Assembly: GCA_902793995.1 (NCBI GenBank)
Contig: CADBFP010000018.1
Coordinates: forward strand, 1-40,127
Origin: an uncultured Lachnospiraceae bacterium
GTDB taxonomy: Bacteria; Bacillota; Clostridia; Lachnospirales; Lachnospiraceae
DNA: 40,127 nt
Direction of reading: 5' to 3'
Below, in pieces: positions 1,718-31,496 of this stretch. The notes under the pieces are model-generated. The model searched no databases. It saw only the letters and a list, made by a program, of their open reading frames with translations, and was not told where the DNA came from. The number at the start of each line of letters is the position of its first letter. The stretch's first letter is position 1. The position numbers and the translations under genes are program-made.

Positions 1718-2995
1718 TTAACATTCCATCATCAGCCGGATGATCTCTTTGTCGGTCTGTTCCATGCCGAAGCGGGCCAGCTTGCCCACGGTAGCGATAG
1801 TGTTTTCCACGCCCTTTTTGACGATGCCGTCGCCGCCGAAGAACTGGCTGCCGTTCTCGTACATGGCCAGGCCCAGCAGGCCTGCGTCCACGGCGGCGGC
1901 GATCTTGGCGGCGCAGCTGGCCTTGGCCCCGTCACAGACAATGCCGGAGGTGACCGCCACCGCGTTGACGATGGTATGAGCGATCATTTCAAACCGTCCG
2001 CCCTTGAGGTAGGCGATCCCCGCGCCTGCGCCCACGCCGGCGCTGACGGCTCCGCAGTAGGCGGAGAGCCGGCCGATGCCGGTCTTCAGATGGGTGGTGA
2101 TCAGATTGGAGACGCACAGAGCCCGCAGCAGCTCCTCATGGGTCTTTCCCGTCTCCCGGGCGTAGACAATCACCGGCACCGAGGCGGTGATGCCCTGGTT
2201 GCCGGAGCCCGAGTTGATCACCACCGGCAGCTCGCAGCCGTTCATCCGGGCGTCGCTGGCGGCGGCTGCCCAGGCCCGCATCTTGTAGTTGATATCGTTC
2301 TCCCGGTGCAGAAGCACGGTCTTGCCGATGTTAGCCCCGTAATCCCCCCGGAGGCCCTCGGCGGCAATCGCCATGTTGTATTGGATCTGCCGCTCCAAGG
2401 TTTCCCGGACGTCGCCCAGGTCCACGGAGTCGGCAAAGTCCACGATCCCCTCCACGGACAGGCAGGACCGGTCCGTCAGACCTTCGTCCAGCTGTTGGGT
2501 GAGCTCCTTCTCCAGGAGGATCTGCTCATTTCGACGGACGGAGACCACGTTGGTGTGGTAGTCCACGATCCGCACGGAAGCAGAGTCCGCTCCGTGGAAG
2601 GCGGTGATCTGAATGTCAAAGATATGGCCCGTATCCGCGTGGCGCACCTCGATGGGCACGGTGTTCAGAAATCCGGAAATTGTGGCGATCTGCTCTCCCG
2701 TCACGTGGGAGAGCACCTCCAGTTCGGCCTCGGCGTCTCCGGCCACGGCGCCGGAAGCGGCTGCCGCGGGGATCCCCCGGAGGCCGCCGGTGTAGGGCAC
2801 CACGACGCTTTTCACGTTCTTGATGATGTTGCCGCTGATCTCCGCCAGCAGTCGGTCCGGCCTGGCCCCCAGCACCGCCCGGGCCTTGGCGGCGGCGTAG
2901 GCGATGGCGATGGGCTCTGTGCAGCCCATGGCGGGCCGCAGCTCTTCCTTGAGGATTTGGACGTAAGCGGCTTCCCGCGGATCAGATGCTTTCAT
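1718..2995 (-). CDS. cyuA: L-cysteine desulfidase (CyuA / L-serine dehydratase alpha-like family)
   Basis: The 425-residue protein has the usual length of the family. The N-terminus has RPAMGCTEPIAIAYA (GCTEP motif, Cys24 or so), the middle has VINSGSGNQGI, and the C-terminus has SAYCGAVSAGVGAGAG and SGIVCDGAKASCAAK, whose cysteines are expected to hold the [4Fe-4S] cluster. The enzyme splits L-cysteine to pyruvate, ammonia and sulfide in the cytoplasm and serves cysteine catabolism and detoxification. The ATG at 2995 follows GGGGAG with 6-nt spacing. The gene lies 169 bp downstream of a thioredoxin-reductase-like gene and is separated from it by a terminator, so it probably has its own promoter. 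Cysteine desulfidase is better supported than serine dehydratase, but the two are close relatives. Confidence 0.88.
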   Translation of the reverse strand: MKASDPREAAYVQILKEELRPAMGCTEPIAIAYAAAKARAVLGARPDRLLAEISGNIIKNVKSVVVPYTGGLRGIPAAAASGAVAGDAEAELEVLSHVTGEQIATISGFLNTVPIEVRHADTGHIFDIQITAFHGADSASVRIVDYHTNVVSVRRNEQILLEKELTQQLDEGLTDRSCLSVEGIVDFADSVDLGDVRETLERQIQYNMAIAAEGLRGDYGANIGKTVLLHRENDINYKMRAWAAAASDARMNGCELPVVINSGSGNQGITASVPVIVYARETGKTHEELLRALCVSNLITTHLKTGIGRLSAYCGAVSAGVGAGAGIAYLKGGRFEMIAHTIVNAVAVTSGIVCDGAKASCAAKIAAAVDAGLLGLAMYENGSQFFGGDGIVKKGVENTIATVGKLARFGMEQTDKEIIRLMMEC

Positions 2996-3164: not shown

Positions 3165-3590
3165 TTATTTTGCTTCCGCTGCGGCCAGGTATTCCACAAT
3201 GCTGTGAGCAGCCACGTTGCCTTCGCCCACGGCCTTGGTCAGCTGGTAGGGCCGGCCGGTGCAGTCGCCGGCGGCATAACAGCCGGGCTTGTTGGTCTCC
3301 ATCCTCCGGTTGACCACAATGTTCGGCCCGTCGATTTCCAGGCCCCGGAGGAGTCTGCCGGGAGCAACGGCGGGACGGATCACAAAGACGCTGTCCACGT
3401 CCAGCCGGGTCCCGTCCCGGAGTTCAACACCCTCCGCGGCGCTGTCACCCAGAATGGCCTGAAGCTTGCCGGGATTCAGAATCACGTTCTCCCGCCGAAC
3501 CCCGCAATCGGCGTAGGGTGTAAACAGATAGACCTTGGCGGCAATCTCTGCCAGGTACTCCGCTTCATGCTCAACTTCCTTGGCCCAGCA
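3165..3590 (-). pseudogene. Thioredoxin-reductase-like FAD/NAD(P) oxidoreductase, C-terminal half
   Basis: The fragment reads WAKEVEHEAEYLAEIAAKVYLF (part of the NAD(P)-binding domain), then DVDSVFVIRPAVAPGRLLRGLE, and ends with NKPGCYAAGDCTGRPYQLTKAVGEGNVAAHSIVEYL, the FAD-binding G-D segment of TrxB-type enzymes. The N-terminal FAD-binding GxGxxG motif and the redox-active region are absent. The frame passes straight into GH3 sequence upstream. This clostridial subfamily is often seen near thioredoxin, and a thioredoxin is present at 5777 on the other strand. About 140 of an expected 290 residues remain, so it is broken here, either in the organism or in the assembly. Confidence 0.8.
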
Positions 3591-4243
3591 GCAGATCCGC
3601 CAATACCTCTCCTGTAACACTGCCAAGCTGGCTCAAATACAGGATGTTCTTTGCTTCCAGAACCGGGCGAAGGTCCACAACACCGCCCACGTTCAGCACC
3701 AAAAGAAACCGGCGAAAGCGACGATTCAGGTTCAGAATATCCCGGATCTCAGAGGCGGTCAGCCGGAGATCTCCGGGGCAATCGATCCGGTCCGTTCCTT
3801 CGCCGGAGCGGCGGGCCAGCACGTAAACACAGGCTTCCCCATCTCCGTCCAGGGGGAGCGCATATTCATATTCCGGCTCTACGCGTCCGAAGCCGAGAAA
3901 GAGGGGGGATACGCCCTTGGCTTCGGCCTCTCGCCAGATTCCGGCAATAAAGTCCTTGTGATGGGCGGCACGCTGGGTGTCATAGGCATCCAGCCAGGCC
4001 CTGGTGGTGATGGAGAAACCGGCAGCTGAAAGCCCCGCCTCAATGGTGACCGCTGCGCGCGCGACTGTCCCCGGAGCCTGTGCCTCCAAACACCGTGTGT
4101 CGGGCATCGTTTCCATGCAATGCAATGGAACAGGGCCCGTTCAGTGGAAAAGCTCCGTCCTTCTTCAAAAGAACCGTGCATTCTGCGGCTTTTTTTCGAA
4201 GCAACGCCCGGTGACGGGATTCATGCGGCTGCAAATCTGCCAT
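3591..4243 (-). pseudogene. GH3 beta-glucosidase (permuted type), N-terminal fragment with frameshift
   Basis: The start is fixed at ATG 4243 by AAAGGAG with 7-nt spacing. The frame gives AAECTVLLKKDGAFPL, ALHGNDARHTVFGGTGSGDS, the C-terminal-domain signature of family 3 glycosidases that comes first in this permuted clostridial type. At the GC repeat at 4055-4063 the frame must shift by one base, and the protein then continues as AAVTIEAGLSAAGFSITTRAWLDAY, RFLLVLNVGGVVDL and LSQLGSVTGEVLADLLLGQ. It stops at the junction with the flavoprotein. Only about 220 of an expected 750-950 residues remain; the catalytic TIM barrel is missing. The frameshift may be a sequencing slip in the GCGCGCGCG run or real decay. 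Confidence 0.8.
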
Positions 4244-4558: not shown

Positions 4559-4612
4559 AGAGGCCCGGCAGGGAGGCAACCACGCTTCCCTGCCGGGCCT
4601 CTCTTTGTTTTT
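4559..4612 (+). terminator. Strong terminator upstream of the prolyl-isomerase operon
   Basis: A perfect 16-bp stem (4559-4574 with 4587-4602, GC-rich) is followed by CTTTGTTTTT on the plus strand. It insulates the operon starting at 4840 from the upstream transcript. Confidence 0.85.
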
Positions 4613-4839
4613 AAAAGAGCTTTCGTCATTCAGGCGCAATTCTACGCTCGAATGGATTGCTCCCTTCAGCCAAGCGCTTTTTTCAGGCGGGGAGTCGAAT
4701 CATCGGAAAACGGGACAAGATTTGCGCCTTCCGGTACAGGATGGACCGGGCGGATTGCATTCGGCGGAACATTGTGATATATCTCGGTTGCAATGAATAT
4801 TCTTTCGCTTTTGTTGAAATCGAACAAGGAGTGCCGCCT

Positions 4840-5775
4840 ATGAAATCTCACGTTTTGGAGATTCTGGATCCCCACAGTGTGGATCTCTCCGCCCTCGCGG
4901 TGCCTGTACAGGTGTCCGAAGACGCGGTAGAAGCAGAGCTGAGCCGCACGGTGCTGCCCTTCGTCCGTTGGGAACCGGCGGAAAGAGCCCGGGAGGGGGA
5001 CATGGCCGTGTGCCGCCTGGTTTCCTCCGTTCCCCGTTATCAGAAGCAGCGGATCAAGCTGATGGTGGGCAGCGGGATGTTCTCCCCCGAGCTGGAAGCG
5101 GCGCTGCCGGGCATGGAGCCCGGCCAAGAGAAGACCCTGGAGCTTCCCGAGGGAACCGTGACCGTCACCCTTCTGGAGGTTCAGCGCAGGCGGGTTCCGA
5201 CCCTGACAGACGAAATGGTTCGCAGCCTGAATCTGGATGGGATTTCCACGGTGGAGGCGTATCGGCGCAGCCTTCGCCGCAAGCTGCGGGAGCAGGCTGC
5301 CTGGGAGGTAATTCAGGAGCCCCTGGATCGCCTGATTCAGGCGGTGATCGACGGCTCCGCCTTCGTCCTGTATCGTCAGGATTGGGAAGTCCTGGTCCGG
5401 CAGCGGATCGAACGCTCCCGGGTTCTGTTCCTGCAGGAGGGGATCGACATGGAGCAGGCCCGGCCGGAGGACTTTGCCGGCCGGATCCCGGTGCGCAGCT
5501 ATTACGAGCTGTTGGCCATGGAACAGGCTGACGGCTGGAATCGGCTCTGCCTGTATCTGCTGGGGCTGCATTGGGCGGCACGGGACGATTATGCGCCGAG
5601 CCGGCAGGCCTACGAGGCCTTTCTGCAGGAGTACTGCAAGACCTGGCGGAGCACCGGGGAGGCCGCCCGGGCGGTGACGCCCTATGAGGCCTACGCAGCC
5701 GGGGAGTATGTGAACCACGCGGTCAGATATCTGGAAACGCTTGTATTGGAGCAGCTGATGAAGGAGGACGTATAA
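4840..5775 (+). CDS. Trigger-factor-like FKBP-type prolyl isomerase
   Basis: ATG 4840 follows AAGGAG with 8-nt spacing, giving 311 residues; the longer open frame upstream has no ribosome site. Residues about 50-120 match the trigger-factor PPIase domain: REGDMAVCRLVS, KLMVGSGMFSPELEAALPGMEPGQ and a VPTLTDEMV ending. The rest is helical and resembles the trigger-factor chaperone C-domain (TVEAYRRSLRRKLREQA). The ribosome-binding N-domain of true trigger factor is not seen, so this is a specialised folding helper rather than tig. The role is inferred to be cytoplasmic folding or holding of a client before export. The thioredoxin gene starts 1 nt after its stop, with the ribosome site inside this gene, so the two are translationally coupled. 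Confidence 0.75.
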   Translation: MKSHVLEILDPHSVDLSALAVPVQVSEDAVEAELSRTVLPFVRWEPAERAREGDMAVCRLVSSVPRYQKQRIKLMVGSGMFSPELEAALPGMEPGQEKTLELPEGTVTVTLLEVQRRRVPTLTDEMVRSLNLDGISTVEAYRRSLRRKLREQAAWEVIQEPLDRLIQAVIDGSAFVLYRQDWEVLVRQRIERSRVLFLQEGIDMEQARPEDFAGRIPVRSYYELLAMEQADGWNRLCLYLLGLHWAARDDYAPSRQAYEAFLQEYCKTWRSTGEAARAVTPYEAYAAGEYVNHAVRYLETLVLEQLMKEDV

Positions 5776-5776
5776 C

Positions 5777-6094
5777 ATGGCAATCTATCAGGCAGACGGG
5801 AGCAATTTCAAGGAGCTCACTTCGGAGGGCTTCGTGCTGGTGGACTTCTGGGGCACCACCTGCGGCCCCTGCAAGGTCTTTTCCCGGATTTTGGAGGGAG
5901 CGGCGGCAGAGCTGCCCCTCATGGATATTGTGAAGGTCAACGTGGACGACAACCCCGATCTGGCCGATGAAAACGACGTGATGGCAGTGCCCACCGTTCA
6001 CATCTACAAGGACGGAGCCTTGGTCAAGAAGCATGTGGGCGTCATGCAGCCGAATGAGATCAAGCAAGTGATCTCGGAATACATGTATTCCTGA
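5777..6094 (+). CDS. trxA: Thioredoxin
   Basis: The 105-residue protein is a complete thioredoxin fold. It has VLVDFWGTTCGPCKVFSRIL (active site C-G-P-C, about residues 29-32), VKVNVDDNPDLADENDVMAVPTVHIYKDG with the cis-Pro before Thr, and a final helix. No signal peptide is present, so it acts in the cytoplasm as a dithiol reductant. The usual W-A/C before CGPC is replaced by G-T-T, a small variation. It is coupled to the prolyl isomerase upstream; the flavoprotein fragment at 3165 may be from the same kind of locus. The next gene follows after 52 nt with no terminator in between. Confidence 0.93.
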   Translation: MAIYQADGSNFKELTSEGFVLVDFWGTTCGPCKVFSRILEGAAAELPLMDIVKVNVDDNPDLADENDVMAVPTVHIYKDGALVKKHVGVMQPNEIKQVISEYMYS

Positions 6095-6146
6095 ATCATA
6101 CAACCGAAAGCGAACAAATCAAAATATAAAATTAGGAGGAAAGAAC

Positions 6147-6623
6147 ATGAAGACCCTGAAGAAGACCCTTTGCCTGCTGCTGGCAGCCGCCCTTCTTGTC
6201 ACCTGCCTGATCGGCTGCGCGAAGAAGCCCGATCCCGTCAACACCAAGACCTGCACCTATGAGGAGATGGTCAACTATCTGAAGGTCAAGGGCTACATCA
6301 AGGAGGACGCCAAGCCCGTGGACATCAACAAGACCGAGGGCTACGTCACCGACAACACCGGCGGCGAGATTCCCTACGCAGCCATGGCCGACAAGGCCGA
6401 GGACTTCGGCGGTCTGTGGCTCTTCCACTGGGAGAAGGACAGCGAGGCCTACAATAACGTCTTCGTCAACGCCCCTGCCAACGGCAATATGCTGGTCTAC
6501 ATGGGCGGCGCCTGTGTGCTGCAGGCGGAAGCCATCAACGGCCTCTATGCCGTGGCCTTTGCCGAGGACTACGCGCAGAAGGATGCCGTTCTGGCCGATT
6601 TCAAGGCACTGCCCAACAAATAA
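6147..6623 (+). CDS. Small secreted lipoprotein, unrecognised family
   Basis: The ATG follows a strong TAGGAGG site. Residues 1-24 are a lipoprotein signal (positive N-terminus, Leu/Ala-rich core, lipobox LIGC with Cys24). The mature part of about 134 residues has TYEEMVNYLKVKGY, DFGGLWLFHWEKDSEAYN, and NGLYAVAFAEDYAQKDAVLADFKAL. I do not recognise a named family. The same three blocks appear, diverged, in the membrane-anchored protein at 10186 (TIEDLMAYLEEKGF, HVEIYWWNLKDP, NGPFGLFSTYYEG with ALEEAFKAF), so the two look like paralogues on either side of the exporter genes. A substrate-binding, immunity or accessory role for the exporter is inference from context. Confidence 0.75.
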   Translation: MKTLKKTLCLLLAAALLVTCLIGCAKKPDPVNTKTCTYEEMVNYLKVKGYIKEDAKPVDINKTEGYVTDNTGGEIPYAAMADKAEDFGGLWLFHWEKDSEAYNNVFVNAPANGNMLVYMGGACVLQAEAINGLYAVAFAEDYAQKDAVLADFKALPNK

Positions 6624-6641
6624 TCCAAATCGAATCCAAAT

Positions 6642-6690
6642 CGCCCCCCCACTTTAACCAATAGCGGATAAAGCGGGGGGCGTCTTCATA
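6642..6690 (+). terminator. GC-rich hairpin between lipoprotein and exporter genes
   Basis: CGCCCCCCC..CTTTA (6642-6656) pairs with TAAAG.GGGGGGCG (6669-6682) with one mismatch; it is followed by TCTTCAT only. It is probably a partial terminator or mRNA-stability hairpin that lowers exporter expression relative to the lipoprotein. Confidence 0.5.
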
Positions 6691-6702
6691 GGAGAGACGC
6701 AA

Positions 6703-8445
6703 ATGGATCAAGACAAAGTATTCCGAAAAAAATACGGCAGCTTTCGAAGGTTCTTCCGAATGCTCTGGAAGGCACCTCTGCCGATTCTCTGGATTCTGGT
6801 CTATATCGGCGTCAGCTTTGCCCTGACGCATGTGGGCGTCAGCGCGACAGAATACAGTGCGAAGCTTTATTCCGGTGACGTTGACACCGTGACCGTGGTG
6901 ATCCCCTTTCTTCTGGTCACGCTGATCGCCCTGCTGATCAGCTCGGTTTCCGGGGTCGTGAACGGAATTTGCAGGGCCTTCATCAACCGGAATCTGCGCC
7001 GGATGGTCTGGCGCAAGGCGGTGCGGCTGCCCCTGTCCTTCTATGAATCCAACGAGCCCAAGCAGCTGATCTCCCGTGTCACCACAGATACCACCGTCAT
7101 CAGCCAGCTGACCATGCAGGTCTTCGTGCCCCTGATTACCATGGGCTATTCCACCTTCGTTCTGCTGCGGAAGGTCAGCAGCTATGACAGCGCCCTCATG
7201 TGGTCTCTCTTTGCGGTGATCCCGCTGAACGTGCTGATCAGCTTCATCCTGGGCCGGCTGCATTTCGGCGTCAGCGACCGGGTCAACCGGGCCACCGCTG
7301 AACTCACCGCCGGCATCGCCGAGCGGGCCAATCAGACGCTGCTGATCAAAACCATGGGTACCGAGGAAAAGGAATGCAAGCAGGGCGAGGTCCTGATAGA
7401 ACAGAGCTTTGCCGCAGGAAAATCCAGCGTGCTGCTGAACCAGCTGTCAGGCCCTGTTCATGCCATTGCCGGGGCTCTGCAGGTGGTGGTCATCATACTG
7501 GTGGGCCGGGGCTTCTATTCCGCCGGCCGCATTTCGCTGGCGGAGTGGATCGCCTATTACGGCTTTGCCACCCAGCTGGCCAACACCATCACCGGCTATC
7601 TCAACGATTGGACCAGCTTCAAATCCGCCCAGGGCGCTACAGACCGGGTAGCCCAGGTGGTGGACACCCCCGACGAGAACACCAGGGAAGGGGTACCGGT
7701 TACGACCCTTTCCGGCGGCATCCGTCTGGAGGACGTCTGCTTCTCCTATGGGGAGGCGCCGCTGTTTGAGCATCTGGATCTGGAGATCCCCGCCGGAAAG
7801 ATCACCGCCCTGGTGGGTCCCTCCGGTTCCGGAAAATCCACCGTTCTGAATCTGATCGACCGGCTTTATCCCCTCCGGGAGGGCCGGATCACGGTGGGAG
7901 CCGATGACACGGCCCGCTTCACCCTGGCCAGCTATCGGCGAGCCCTGGGCTACGTGACCCAGGAGTGCGTGATGTACGCCGGGACCCTGCGGGAGAATCT
8001 GACCCAGGGGATCGAGCGGAGCGTCACCGACGAAGATCTGGACCGGGCCTGTGAAGGCGCCGGGATCCTGGACTTCGTCCGCATGCAGCCCGAGGGCTAC
8101 GATCTGGCGGTGGGCGAGGGCGGCGCCAGCCTCTCCGGCGGCCAGCGCCAGCGCTTCACCGTAGCCAGGGCTCTGCTCCGGCAGCCGGACTATCTGCTGC
8201 TGGACGAGGCCACCGCCGCCATGGACATCGAGGGCAAGGATCTGGTCTGGACCAGCATCCGGCAGCGGATGGCGGGGAAAACCGTGGTCTTCGTGGCCCA
8301 CGACGCCCAGACGGTCCGCAACGCAGACTACATCATCGTCCTGCGGGACGGAAAGGCAGAGGCCGCCGGCGACCGGGATACCATGCTGGCAAGCAATCCC
8401 TACTGCTTGGAAATGATGGAGCAGACCGGGAAGGAGGCGGGCTGA
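6703..8445 (+). CDS. ABC exporter subunit 1 (fused membrane and ATPase domains)
   Basis: The 580-residue half-transporter has an N-terminal six-helix membrane domain (about residues 20-310) and a C-terminal ATPase. The ATPase has Walker A GPSGSGKST (about residue 373), the signature LSGGQRQR, Walker B YLLLDEAT with the catalytic Glu, the D-loop AMD, and the switch His in FVAHD. It ends 1 nt before the second half-transporter, so the two should form a heterodimer that exports a peptide, lipid or drug-like molecule. There is no peptidase C39 domain, so it does not cleave a double-glycine leader itself. The ribosome site AGGAGAG precedes the ATG. The substrate is unknown; the neighbouring small proteins and LytTR regulator favour a peptide or signalling role over general drug efflux. 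Confidence 0.85.
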   Translation: MDQDKVFRKKYGSFRRFFRMLWKAPLPILWILVYIGVSFALTHVGVSATEYSAKLYSGDVDTVTVVIPFLLVTLIALLISSVSGVVNGICRAFINRNLRRMVWRKAVRLPLSFYESNEPKQLISRVTTDTTVISQLTMQVFVPLITMGYSTFVLLRKVSSYDSALMWSLFAVIPLNVLISFILGRLHFGVSDRVNRATAELTAGIAERANQTLLIKTMGTEEKECKQGEVLIEQSFAAGKSSVLLNQLSGPVHAIAGALQVVVIILVGRGFYSAGRISLAEWIAYYGFATQLANTITGYLNDWTSFKSAQGATDRVAQVVDTPDENTREGVPVTTLSGGIRLEDVCFSYGEAPLFEHLDLEIPAGKITALVGPSGSGKSTVLNLIDRLYPLREGRITVGADDTARFTLASYRRALGYVTQECVMYAGTLRENLTQGIERSVTDEDLDRACEGAGILDFVRMQPEGYDLAVGEGGASLSGGQRQRFTVARALLRQPDYLLLDEATAAMDIEGKDLVWTSIRQRMAGKTVVFVAHDAQTVRNADYIIVLRDGKAEAAGDRDTMLASNPYCLEMMEQTGKEAG

Positions 8446-8446
8446 T

Positions 8447-10189
8447 ATGAAGAAAAAACGCTACGGCTTCTCTCTGAAGGAGCTGGTGAAGTTCTACACC
8501 CGCTTTCCCATCCCCTGGTGGATGTACGCCATCTCTCTTGCAGCGGGACTGGTTTACGCTGAGCTGGCCCTGCTGGCGGCCAAAGCCCTGGTGTCCTTCA
8601 ACAAGGGCGAGCTCTACAACTCCGTGATCCTGGGCTACGTTCTGCTGACCGTGGGCAACAGCGTCATTGCGGCGATCCAGAATATTTTCAGTGAAACCGC
8701 CTCCCTGCGGATCACATATCAGGCCCGAAAAATGCTCTGGGACAAGATCCTTCGCCTGCCGCAGGCCGAGGTGGACAGGCGGCAGCCCTCCGCCCTGATC
8801 TCCGGTGTGGTCAACGACGTGCAGACCGCCAGCGAGGTGCTGGCCATGGCCTTCCGCCTGGTCTCCTCTCTCTATGCCTTTGTCCGGGCAGTGATTGTGC
8901 TGTTTCAGTACAGCGCGCCTCTGGCCAGCTGGATGCTGGTGCTGATCCCCCTGGGCATTCTGGTGTTTACCGTTGTGGGCAGGACCCAGCACGCGGTGGC
9001 CAGGCGGCAGTATGACAGCTTGCGGCAGATGACGGAATTCTTCTCCGAACATATTTCCGCCGCCAAGAACGTGAAAACCCAGGCCCTGGAGGACCGGGAG
9101 GAGCGGGAGGGCCTGGCCCAGATCAACAAACGCTTCAAGGCGGACGTCTTCGAGGCCTTTATGAGCGTGGTGCAAACCACCGCCTTCTCCCTCTACAGAA
9201 GCTTCAGCACCGTGCTCATTGCGATTTTCGGCTCCCGCATGATCCGGCAGCAGCAGATGGCCGACAGCGGCATCAACGAATTCAGCACCTATATGGACAA
9301 GGTCCACCAGTACACCGCCGAGATCCTGACCCACTATCAGATTCTCCGGAACACCCAGGGCGCCCTGCAATATGTGGGAGAGCTGCTGGAGCAGCCCCTG
9401 GAGGAACTGGACACAGGCCTTCCCCTGCCCGAGGATTCGGGCAGCGGGGATCTGGTTTTGGACAACGCCAGTTTCAGCTATGAGCCGGGCGCGCCGGTGC
9501 TGAAGAATCTCAGCCTCACCATTCCCGAGGGCAAGGTTACCGCCGTCATCGGCAACAACGGCTGCGGCAAATCCACCCTGATGAAGCTTCTGCAGGGCAT
9601 CTATACCCCCGACAGCGGTTCCATCCGCCTGGGCGGCATGGAGCTGCAAAGCCTGAAGCCCCACCTGCTGCGGCGGCAATTTGGGTATATTTTGCAGAAC
9701 AACCCGTTGTTTTCCGGCACAATTCGCGATAATATCTGTTACGGAGCCCCGGAGGCCGCCGAAGAAGAGATCGCCGCCGCCGCGGAGCTGGCAGACGCTT
9801 TGGGCTTCATCCGGGAGCTTCCGGAGGGCTTCGACACCCAGGTGGGAGAGTCCGGCAAGCTGCTCTCCGGCGGCCAGCGTCAGCGCGTTGCCATCGCCCG
9901 AACTCTGCTGACCCAGCCGCGCTATCTGCTGATGGACGAGGCCGGCGCCAGTCTGGACCACAAGAGCGACGCCGCCATCTTCCGGGCTGTGCGGGAGGCC
10001 CTGCAGGGCCGCACCATCATCCTGATTGCCCATGACATGCGCTCCGTGGTCCAGGCGGACCACATCATCGTTCTGAATCGGGGCAGCCTGGAGGCAGCCG
10101 GAAACCACGAGGAGCTGCTCCGGCGCAGCCCTACCTATCGGGCTTATCTGGAAAAGCAGGGCCTGACCGGGAAGGAGGCGCTCCAATGA
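8447..10189 (+). CDS. ABC exporter subunit 2 (fused membrane and ATPase domains)
   Basis: A second 580-residue half-transporter, with membrane helices in about residues 20-310 followed by an ATPase: Walker A GNNGCGKST, signature LLSGGQRQRVAIAR, Walker B YLLMDEAGASLD and switch His in LIAHD. Both ATPase sites keep the catalytic Glu, unlike many heterodimeric exporters with one degenerate site. GGAGG sits inside the end of subunit 1. The last codons overlap the next gene by 4 nt (ATGA), so expression is coupled with the downstream small protein. Confidence 0.85.
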   Translation: MKKKRYGFSLKELVKFYTRFPIPWWMYAISLAAGLVYAELALLAAKALVSFNKGELYNSVILGYVLLTVGNSVIAAIQNIFSETASLRITYQARKMLWDKILRLPQAEVDRRQPSALISGVVNDVQTASEVLAMAFRLVSSLYAFVRAVIVLFQYSAPLASWMLVLIPLGILVFTVVGRTQHAVARRQYDSLRQMTEFFSEHISAAKNVKTQALEDREEREGLAQINKRFKADVFEAFMSVVQTTAFSLYRSFSTVLIAIFGSRMIRQQQMADSGINEFSTYMDKVHQYTAEILTHYQILRNTQGALQYVGELLEQPLEELDTGLPLPEDSGSGDLVLDNASFSYEPGAPVLKNLSLTIPEGKVTAVIGNNGCGKSTLMKLLQGIYTPDSGSIRLGGMELQSLKPHLLRRQFGYILQNNPLFSGTIRDNICYGAPEAAEEEIAAAAELADALGFIRELPEGFDTQVGESGKLLSGGQRQRVAIARTLLTQPRYLLMDEAGASLDHKSDAAIFRAVREALQGRTIILIAHDMRSVVQADHIIVLNRGSLEAAGNHEELLRRSPTYRAYLEKQGLTGKEALQ

Positions 10190-10656
10190 AAAAGCTGACC
10201 GTCGGATTTCTGATCTTTCTGGTGCTGGCCCTGGCGGGCACGGTGACCTATCTGCTGGTGGGACCGGACTTCACGGCTCCCGCCGCCATCGTCACCCCGG
10301 ACAAGGACCCGGACGCCCCGGTCTGGGATCTGACCATAGAGGATCTCATGGCCTACCTGGAGGAAAAGGGCTTCTGGGACCCGGAGGACGCGCTGCCCAT
10401 CAGCGAGGGCGTAGCGGACAAGGCCTTCGTCAGCCAACACGTAGAGATCTATTGGTGGAACCTGAAGGATCCCAACGAGGATTCCCCTGAGTACCGGGCC
10501 TATATGGACATGCTGGAGACCGGGCAGATCGACCTCTACGGCAAGGGCCTCTCGTTTATGCCCACCACGAAAAACGGACCCTTCGGCCTGTTCTCCACCT
10601 ACTATGAGGGGGACGTCAAGGCCCTGGAGGAGGCCTTCAAGGCCTTCGGACACTGA
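10186..10656 (+). CDS. Small membrane-anchored protein, diverged relative of the lipoprotein at 6147
   Basis: ATG overlaps the stop of the exporter gene by 4 nt and has GGAGG upstream. Residues 5-26 are a single hydrophobic helix (signal anchor; no lipobox Cys), then about 130 residues outside the membrane. The segments TIEDLMAYLEEKGFWDPED, EIYWWNLKDPNED and FGLFSTYYEGDVKALEEAFKAF line up in order with segments of the lipoprotein encoded just before the exporter. No known family is recognised. Being coupled to the exporter suggests an accessory subunit, immunity partner or cargo-handling protein. Confidence 0.7.
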   Translation: MKKLTVGFLIFLVLALAGTVTYLLVGPDFTAPAAIVTPDKDPDAPVWDLTIEDLMAYLEEKGFWDPEDALPISEGVADKAFVSQHVEIYWWNLKDPNEDSPEYRAYMDMLETGQIDLYGKGLSFMPTTKNGPFGLFSTYYEGDVKALEEAFKAFGH

Positions 10657-10676
10657 GCGGCAAGGAGGAAGACCCC

Positions 10677-11441
10677 ATGGAAAAATTGCGTCTGCTGATG
10701 GTGGACAGCGACCCCATCATCCGTTTTAATCTGCTGGAACTTCTGAATATGCACAGCTGCTTCCGCCTGGAGGCGGAGCTGGAGACCACCGAGGAAGCGT
10801 TGGACCACATTCTGACCCATGAGGTGGACGTGGTATTCATCAACTGTCAGCCCGCGGACCCAAGCCGCACCAGCCAGGGAACCTGTCTGCCGCTGATGCT
10901 GGAGAGCAAGTATCCGGATATTCAGGTGATCGCCTACAGCGGCTCCCCGGAGGACGCCTATTCCGCGGTGCGGAACGGCTGTTCCGGTTTCTTTACCCTG
11001 CCTGCCGAACCCGTAGACCTGCACCGCATCGTGAACCGGCTCTGCTACATCTATCAGCTCCAGCGTCTGCGGGATGAGACCGCCCACAGCAGCCTGATGA
11101 TCAAGACCCGCTCCGGCTACGATATGCTCCAGGTCCGTCAAATTCTCTTTCTGGAACGGATCGGCCGCAGCTGCCGCATCCACATGGAGGATGGGCGGCA
11201 GGTGGAGCTGGTGGGCTACAGCATGGCGGAATTGGAGCGGATGCTGAAAAAGCGGGGCTTCTTCCGTTGCCACCAGTCCTTTCTGGTGAACCTGGCCAAG
11301 GTTGCCATGATCCAGTCGGACAACGACAGCAAGCACTATGCGGTCCGTTTCGTGGGCCTGGACGGAGAGATCGCCGTCAGCCGGGAGAAATATATGGATA
11401 TGGTGTCTCTGCTGCGGGACAGGTTTGCCCGGCTGGAATAA
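10677..11441 (+). CDS. LytTR-family regulator with a degenerate receiver domain
   Basis: The 254 residues have a CheY-like receiver (1-125) and a LytTR DNA-binding domain (about 140-250: SLMIKTRSGYDMLQVRQILFLERIGR, FFRCHQSFLVNLAKVAMI, AVSREKYMDMV). The acidic pair at the start (VDSD) is kept. At the phosphorylation position the strand reads VDVVFINCQPA, so Asn56 stands where Asp is expected, and the later conserved Lys is absent (FFTLPAEP instead of a K-P pair). It should therefore not be activated by ordinary phosphotransfer. No histidine kinase is encoded beside it. It ends the exporter operon (GGAGG 8-nt spacing, 20 nt after the previous gene) and probably controls that operon through another signal or by dimerisation alone. 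Confidence 0.85.
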   Translation: MEKLRLLMVDSDPIIRFNLLELLNMHSCFRLEAELETTEEALDHILTHEVDVVFINCQPADPSRTSQGTCLPLMLESKYPDIQVIAYSGSPEDAYSAVRNGCSGFFTLPAEPVDLHRIVNRLCYIYQLQRLRDETAHSSLMIKTRSGYDMLQVRQILFLERIGRSCRIHMEDGRQVELVGYSMAELERMLKKRGFFRCHQSFLVNLAKVAMIQSDNDSKHYAVRFVGLDGEIAVSREKYMDMVSLLRDRFARLE

Positions 11442-30761: not shown

Positions 30762-31496
30762 ATGCCGCGTATACTCATTATCGAAGACGAAGAAAAACTG
30801 GCGCGTTTCATTGAACTGGAGCTCTCCCACGAGGGCTACGAAAGCGCCAAAGCCCACGACGGGCGGGCCGGCCTGGAGCTGGCCCGCCAGGAGGACTTTG
30901 ACCTGATCCTTCTGGATATTATGCTGCCGGGCTTAAACGGCATGGAGGTGCTTAGACGCCTGCGGCAGGAAAAAAGCACCCCGGTGATTCTCCTCACCGC
31001 CCGGGATTCCGTGATGGACAAGGTGGCGGGGCTGGACGCCGGGGCCATGGACTATATTACCAAGCCCTTCGCCATCGAAGAGCTTTTAGCCCGGATCCGG
31101 GTAAGTCTCAAATACCGGGGCAGCGGGACGGCGACAGCCGGAGAAGGGGCCGGAGGCCCGACAGGAAGTACCCTTTCCCCTAACGGGAAAGACCCCTTCT
31201 CCATGACCTGGGGCCACCTTCTTCTGGAGGCGGACAAGCACCGGGTCAGCTGGGCGGGGCAGGAAATCAGCCTCACCAACCGGGAATTTCTGATGCTGAA
31301 GACCCTGCTGGAAAACCGGGATATCGTTCTCTCCCGGGATAGCCTGCTGGAAAAGGTCTGCGGCTACGATTATCTGGGGGAGACCAATATTGTGGATGTA
31401 TATGTGCGGCATCTAAGAGCCAAGATCGACGAGGTGTACGGGGTGAAAATGCTCCAGACCGTCCGAGGGGTGGGTTATGTCATCCGTTCCCAGTAG
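30762..31496 (+). CDS. OmpR/PhoB-family response regulator
   Basis: The 244 residues have a receiver with IEDEEKL, phosphoacceptor Asp52 in LILLDIMLPG, Thr in LLTARDS and Lys103 in ITKPFAIEEL. After a long Gly/Thr linker (120-145) there is a winged-helix domain: SLTNREFLMLKTLLENRDIVLSRDSLLEKVCGYDY and VDVYVRHLRAKIDE. It should bind DNA as a phosphorylated dimer. The linker is longer than usual. It overlaps the kinase start. Confidence 0.95.
   Translation: MPRILIIEDEEKLARFIELELSHEGYESAKAHDGRAGLELARQEDFDLILLDIMLPGLNGMEVLRRLRQEKSTPVILLTARDSVMDKVAGLDAGAMDYITKPFAIEELLARIRVSLKYRGSGTATAGEGAGGPTGSTLSPNGKDPFSMTWGHLLLEADKHRVSWAGQEISLTNREFLMLKTLLENRDIVLSRDSLLEKVCGYDYLGETNIVDVYVRHLRAKIDEVYGVKMLQTVRGVGYVIRSQ

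Follow-up and report, generated by a model that had tools for sequence, protein, structure and literature searches.

The window analysed here is the whole stretch of 40,127 nucleotides of contig CADBFP010000018.1 from an uncultured Lachnospiraceae bacterium, and its subject is a compact operon of seven genes on the plus strand at 4840-11441, hereafter the cassette. The first open reading frame (ORF; 4840-5775), which is also open from an upstream TTG at 4657, encodes a putative cytoplasmic chaperone of 311 aa with a trigger-factor-like C-terminal region (TF-like protein, TF). It is followed by a thioredoxin with a CGPC active site (Trx; 5777-6094), a predicted surface lipoprotein without a family (LP; 6147-6623), two ABC half-transporters (ABC-A, 6703-8445; ABC-B, 8447-10189), a membrane-anchored LP paralogue (M; 10186-10656) and a LytTR response regulator with a degenerate receiver (RR; 10677-11441; LytTR domain 57.5 bits). 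As the initial annotation had described, the seven ORFs are closely packed: each begins from -3 to 80 bp relative to the end of the preceding gene, the overlap being the ATGA that couples M to ABC-B, and all seven starts are preceded by an AGGAG-type site. Immediately 5′ of the operon, at 4559-4602 on the plus strand, a consensus match gave a terminator-like hairpin of 19 pairs followed by T's, which is a possible 5′ boundary. Terminator-like hairpins numbered seven against 7.8 expected from shuffles, and this one was the sole hairpin with 19 pairs.

When LP and M were used as single-sequence queries against 61 genomes, no credible match emerged, and the TF-like protein proved the useful query. 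Profile searches with it covered, in overlapping samples, 392 genomes from the order with a two-row profile (A1) and, with a five-row profile (A2), 397 from the family and 391 from the class. The cassette was found in 15 genomes (G000, G027, G081, G099, G130, G307, G418, G468, G566, G578, G593, G607, G619, G646 and G1030). Thirteen of these separate by scores above 100 bits, with the listed ordinary trigger factors at about 62 on A2, while G099 and G130 were assigned by gene context. Three candidates at 62-75 bits (L113-L115, in G623, G020 and G652) were rejected, as the remaining cassette genes were absent and the proteins start with lipoprotein-like signal peptides; L044 and L045 were likewise set aside for absence of the other cassette genes. 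A profile of LP, a search proposed at the outset, retrieved 18 loci in genome contigs, four of which overlap the genome set of the TF-like profile. The organisms were Sellimonas caecigallum, Drancourtella massiliensis, A85_79.ET.DSS, UBA9414, Dorea sp. 5-2, Sporofaciens musculi and Clostridium hydrogenum, together with a metagenome-assembled genome (MAG) from sheep omasum and further Lachnospiraceae and Clostridia MAGs.

Fourteen lineages, all within Clostridia, were counted by taking the window and its relatives L116-L119 once, a Lachnospiraceae group once, and L042 with L043 once. The genes for the TF-like protein and thioredoxin are neighbours in 14/14 lineages, and those for ABC-A and ABC-B in all 13 that show both. 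At the locus, a histidine kinase (HK) is encoded in seven lineages, M in three, an M16C peptidase in seven, an M18 aminopeptidase in one and an L-cysteine desulfidase (CyuA) in two; thioredoxin reductase (TrxR) occurs in three and a ferredoxin-thioredoxin reductase-like (FTR-like) gene in three others, so that a reductase or reductase-like gene is present in six. The window order TF-Trx-LP-A-B-M-RR recurs exactly in the three close relatives L116-L118, where a CyuA fragment, TrxR and CyuA follow (CyuA being incomplete in L117), and in C. hydrogenum (L123), where M16C follows. In L116 and L118 CyuA is succeeded by M16C, which extends to the end of the contig or locus or close to it, L117 stopping earlier; L119 starts at Trx, with CyuA on the opposite strand. 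The Lachnospiraceae group reads LP-A-B-M-RR-TF-Trx-M16C, with M18, CyuA or both thereafter in several members. Kinase-led orders are HK-RR-A-B-TF-Trx-LP-FTR-M16C (L025), HK-RR-A-B-TF-Trx-LP-TrxR-M16C (L109), HK-RR-A-B-TF-Trx-M16C (L041), HK-RR-LPx-A-B-TF-Trx-TrxR (L042) and HK-RR-A-B-TF-Trx-LP (L105 and L107). The others are A-B-TF-Trx-LP (L108), LPx-A-B-TF-Trx-FTR (L106 and L112), M16C, a 1049-aa anchored protein, LPx-A-B-TF-Trx and HK-RR (L110), and TF-Trx on a 5-kb contig (L111). No single locus carries all cassette functions; four lineages (L105, L107, L108, L111) show neither M16C nor a reductase, L108 and L111 being cut by the contig end on one side. One genome, G646, carries three cassette loci (L105, L106 and L107) with two of the three transporter types and differing lipoproteins.

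The thioredoxin named by the initial annotation is unambiguous (PF00085, 70.6 bits, cut-off 23.5). No signal peptide was seen in the window copy, and its motif belongs to the CxPC form found in 13/16 loci, the other three having CGAC. The likeness of the first protein to trigger factor was also upheld, but the prolyl isomerase role assigned to it is doubtful. Its scores fall below cut-off for both the whole-protein equivalog TIGR00115 (63 bits, cut-off 180) and FKBP_C (15 bits, cut-off 21). Aligned to the genome's own trigger factor, the window protein lacks the ribosome-binding N-terminal domain, and all 12 cassette proteins aligned (those of L107, L110 and L112 being left out) share a gap of 13 residues in the peptidyl-prolyl isomerase (PPIase) domain, where the own trigger factor has TFPEEYGAKELAG. 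The matching stretch contains an active-site Tyr in E. coli trigger factor. With sub-cut-off scores and a PPIase domain short of 13 residues, the label of isomerase is too strong, and the protein is likely a chaperone without isomerase activity.

Neither LP nor M attains the cut-off of any family among Pfam and the equivalog models, in agreement with the initial annotation that they belong to no known family. Their proposed relatedness is only suggestive for the single pair (BLAST E 0.056; 15/1000 shuffles score equally high) and emerges from profiles, with an hhalign probability of 96.6% for five sequences each and 97.3% for 16 and 15 sequences (E 1.8e-11 over 101 columns), the E-values being optimistic because the profiles are shallow (effective number of sequences, Neff, 1.4-2.0). 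By these profiles, shallow as they are, LP and M are related as paralogues. The AlphaFold models (pLDDT 84.8 for LP and 71.7 for M), compared by the order of their elements, share the succession helix-two strands-helix-strand-helix; three extra strands of the LP model are missing from that of M, in a low-confidence stretch. No solved relative of LP was retrieved (best E 0.2 by sequence search, 0.47 by fold search), and no conserved cysteine pair is found in LP or M. A single common origin for all cassette lipoproteins was considered and is not supported, since the profile comparison matches mainly the signal peptide, types I and II matching besides this in a short helix. By eye, the C. hydrogenum lipoprotein (L123, 9986-10954), at 322 aa twice the length of the others, has what seems a second domain copy, and the 1049-aa membrane-anchored protein of L110 (8011-11160) has five RYVL-type copies of the type III lipoprotein domain; the latter is possibly the counterpart of M in another lineage.

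The grouping of surface lipoproteins with a regulator and an ABC transporter is reminiscent of lantibiotic immunity (LanI/LanFEG type), and the three copies in G646 with differing lipoproteins are as expected if ligands differ. Immunity by expulsion, in which LP and M would bind an antimicrobial peptide that ABC-A/B pumps outward while the cytoplasmic enzymes clear leakage, is nevertheless unlikely. The transporters of lantibiotic immunity consist of separate ATPase and permease chains, whereas those of the cassette are fused, and leakage hardly accounts for a peptidase in 7/14 and a reductase in 6/14 lineages.

The presence of M coincides with loss of the kinase. In an alignment of 14 regulators, the seven from M-carrying loci without HK (three lineages) have the phosphoryl-accepting Asp of the receiver replaced by Asn and the conserved Lys by Leu; Asp and Lys are retained in the seven HK-carrying loci, whose kinases have GHKL and SPOB_a domains. 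Further along the window, positions 30762-31496 contain another ORF like a LytTR-type response regulator, which matches the L025 regulator at 28%.

ABC-A and ABC-B each fuse an ABC_membrane domain (PF00664) to an ABC_tran domain (PF00005), so the two half-transporters of exporter type in the initial annotation are confirmed by domains. Walker A, the Walker B Glu and the switch His are kept in all 14 A and 14 B proteins examined, the signature motif of ABC-B is variable, and in L104/L131 ABC-B is divided over two frames. In a tree with a single outgroup, 13 A and 13 B proteins split to two sides (86/79) with the same three groups recurring within each half, a pattern to be expected of an old heterodimer. 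Sap/Opp-type peptide importers consist of a binding protein with separate permeases and ATPases, a layout that the fused half-transporters do not have. In Pfam scans no C39 peptidase domain was found in either protein, nor any match to the SbmA/BacA model (E up to 1), PF00664 being found instead. The class II bacteriocin exporter model TIGR01193 gave 204.8 and 199.7 bits, below its cut-off of 523.85. Export of cysteine or another thiol by a CydDC-like ABC-A/B, with thioredoxin, reductase and desulfidase balancing the pool, would make sense of the linkage of thioredoxin, TrxR or FTR-like genes and cysteine desulfidase. CydDC is likewise a heterodimer of ABC half-transporters in a redox context; however, the models TIGR02857 and TIGR02868 gave 201 and 191 bits for ABC-A and 253 and 215 bits for ABC-B, a range of 191-253 bits that is far under the cut-offs of 435 and 329, and M16C, M18 and the TF-like chaperone indicate polypeptides rather than thiols. 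Thiol homeostasis is therefore very improbable.

The M16C peptidases of the seven lineages (window relatives L116/L118, the Lachnospiraceae group, C. hydrogenum, L041, L025, L109 and L110) are of the PreP/falcilysin type, with M16C_assoc and PreP_C exceeding the Pfam cut-off in each of the three copies from the loci that were scanned and the HILEH form of the HxxEH motif retained in all 12 full-length copies examined. M16C is encoded somewhere in every one of the 15 cassette genomes, within the locus in eight and outside it in the other seven. Among the former, seven genomes (four lineages) have exactly one further copy elsewhere and G081 has the locus copy only, so that the locus gene accompanies another genome copy in four of five lineages checked. 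The desulfidase of L116 is identified as L-cysteine desulfidase by full-length homology, matching PDB 9he0 over 12-422 (E 2.1e-27) and a plasmid-borne E. coli cyuA at 38% over 98%. A 165-aa desulfidase fragment at L116 10826-11323 precedes the full-length gene, so this stretch has undergone duplication or recombination. The FTR-like gene of L025 matches PF02943 at 24.1 bits (cut-off 22). For comparison, the same five genes were sought at E 1e-10 in 289 kb made up of 59 distinct places outside the system, most of them surrounding ordinary trigger factor genes and none overlapping a system locus; one M18 turned up and none of M16C, TrxR, FTR or CyuA.

The recurring short precursor that the initial annotation had envisaged was not encountered: a scan of 17 loci with 932 small ORFs, which could miss a fast-changing or distant gene, gave no candidate that crossed lineages, and the sole small gene common to several lineages, besides a repeat, was the FTR-like gene. 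A short coding-like repeat (TGDGPLS / NRPLSE) runs between genes of G646 at L105 13623-13863 and L106 4303-4479. Dedicated secretion, with ABC-A/B exporting a peptide or protein that contains Cys, has its gene elsewhere and is kept unfolded and reduced by the chaperone and thioredoxin, would agree with the exporter-type sequences of both half-transporters and with a cytoplasmic chaperone and reductant suited to export of an unfolded chain. LP and M would then aid folding or anchoring outside, and M16C would remove stuck precursor, although these added roles share the low probability that we give to secretion as a whole. Besides the lack of a cross-lineage precursor within the limits of the scan, secretion has to contend with the missing C39 domain, with the missing cysteine pair in LP and M, and with cysteine desulfidase and M18 aminopeptidase, which do not fit. 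The earlier proposal of a peptide kept reduced before export thus fares poorly, M16C, TrxR, CyuA and M18 as neighbours fitting peptide uptake better. Of its two suggested purposes, production is disfavoured by the precursor scan, and protection from an imported peptide, to which feeding on it is added here, is favoured by these same four enzymes.

The reading that we prefer, and to which we give about an even chance, is that the cassette takes up and destroys disulfide-bonded peptides, either antimicrobial ones of host or bacterial origin or Cys-rich food peptides. Reductant, reductase, chaperone, peptidases and desulfidase form a consistent path for the intracellular breakdown of a disulfide-bonded polypeptide, and import with digestion is favoured by analogy with Haemophilus Sap and rhizobial BacA/HrrP. 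Gene content and co-occurrence, the families, the kinship of LP and M, the gap in the PPIase domain and the degenerate receiver are direct findings; in the scheme that follows we infer the substrate, the direction in which it is transported, its binding by LP and M, and the order of steps. A peptide outside the cell would be sensed by the GHKL kinase and LytTR regulator (7/14 lineages) or, in loci of the window type, perhaps via M or by a kinase-independent LytTR protein. It would be bound at the membrane by LP and M and carried into the cytoplasm by the ABC-A/B heterodimer. There its disulfides would be opened by thioredoxin, recharged by TrxR or the FTR-like protein, and the TF-like chaperone would hold it unfolded while M16C, in one lineage together with M18 aminopeptidase, cleaves it. 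The freed cysteine would finally be disposed of by L-cysteine desulfidase.

Several observations weigh against uptake and digestion. The best solved relatives of the ABC-A and ABC-B profiles are P-glycoproteins and their kin, followed by BmrA, Sav1866 and TM288; both proteins resemble ordinary exporters and show no sequence sign of import. M16C was not seen in 7/14 loci; L106, L108 and L111 are cut by the contig on one side, and L105, L107, L112 and L042 show several kb past the locus without it. A single origin of the locus M16Cs was not found, as a tree of 27 sequences (12 locus rows) needs four changes and gives no single clade, and these genes were therefore replaced or acquired on more than one occasion. 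The FTR-like copies of L106 and L112 have no Pfam match, though they are 71% and 64% identical to that of L025, and a search for the PF02943 family in G646 and G1030 gave no match. Apart from the signal peptide and one short helix, homology of the three LP types is unproven. The control serves as a guide and carries no p-value, because its loci, with a median of 3.8 kb, are shorter than the system loci. Lastly, the one M16C found in the window genome, which is 93% complete, lies outside the locus and shares 34-37% identity with the copies of L116 and L118; an M16C gene may have been missed.

The flanks of the window copy also depart from those of its relatives. A C-terminal TrxR fragment of 153 aa (3165-3626, minus strand; PF07992) matches the L042 TrxR at 48%, the intact counterpart in L116-L118 being 285 aa. 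An L-cysteine desulfidase gene of the CyuA family (1718-2995, minus strand) is divergent from the operon, and its counterpart in L116-L118 lies downstream on the same strand. Within 3165-4125 on the minus strand the TrxR fragment joins a fragment like the C-terminal domain of family 3 glycosyl hydrolases (26.7 bits, under the cut-off of 31), and the segment is apparently a junction of two gene remnants. With its reductase fragmentary and no M16C in the locus, the window copy may be reduced or may use enzymes encoded elsewhere. The operon DNA is 91-96% identical to L116-L119, and when 15 further genomes from the genus (67-97% complete) were searched with ABC-B at E 1e-150, none matched. Compared with L116-L118, the TF-like protein is 58-59% identical whereas ABC-A, ABC-B, M and RR are 96-99% identical, which makes the locus a mosaic.

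Relations to known systems were sought at several levels. With PADLOC, nine proteins gave no matches that make up a known anti-phage system: ABC-A and ABC-B matched the mads models mad3 and mad8 through their ATPase domains, RR matched PDC-M43A through its receiver, and the remaining six proteins scanned had no match. PedC/PedD-type export of class II bacteriocins combines an ABC transporter with a thioredoxin-like accessory protein; the cassette shares both, but has no precursor found and no C39 domain, and adds chaperone, reductase and M16C. PreP and falcilysin belong to the same M16C family, the cassette peptidase differing in being tied to a transporter locus.

In the Sap system of Haemophilus influenzae (PMC3207918), antimicrobial peptides are imported and then degraded by cytoplasmic peptidase activity. 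A surface binding protein, an ABC transporter, and import with degradation would be common to Sap and the cassette, which differs in its fused half-transporters, its family-less lipoprotein, and the reductase, chaperone and peptidase in the same loci. PMC8175422 describes BacA import in rhizobia as protective for the cell, and the rhizobial M16 peptidase HrrP as degrading NCR peptides far more rapidly if disulfide formation is prevented. The likeness to BacA/BclA with HrrP/SapA would thus lie in the import of Cys-rich peptides and an M16 peptidase acting best on reduced peptide. Unlike that arrangement, the cassette has no SbmA/BacA domain in ABC-A or ABC-B, has M16C in place of HrrP, and is a single locus that includes a thioredoxin of its own and, in 6/14 lineages, a reductase or reductase-like gene. 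Searches of open-access papers brought up none that describes the surface proteins, the derived trigger factor or the assembly; a legend of PMC10301443 names a different locus. The claim of a coherent and undescribed system with a surface pair, a transporter and a folding/redox pair thus agrees with its recurrence and with this literature, and since the gene order recurs and the small proteins are related, it stands on both counts on which it could have failed. The component families being known, the cassette may by analogy of its mode of action be grouped with peptide import-and-degrade systems, outside any named family. That it is a new kind of system, in which one regulated locus runs an exporter-type ABC transporter as importer with its own reductase, a chaperone derived from trigger factor and a PreP-type peptidase, and thereby captures and digests disulfide-bonded peptides via new surface proteins, is a more demanding proposal that we put forward tentatively and rate below an even chance.

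If true, gut and other clostridia would have a dedicated route for the uptake and destruction of disulfide-rich peptides, for instance defensins, bacteriocins or inhibitors from food, and this would parallel Sap and BacA with HrrP in Gram-positive bacteria. A role would also be given to a derived trigger factor that lacks the ribosome-binding domain and whose PPIase domain is shortened, and the direction of transport by the half-transporters would become directly testable.

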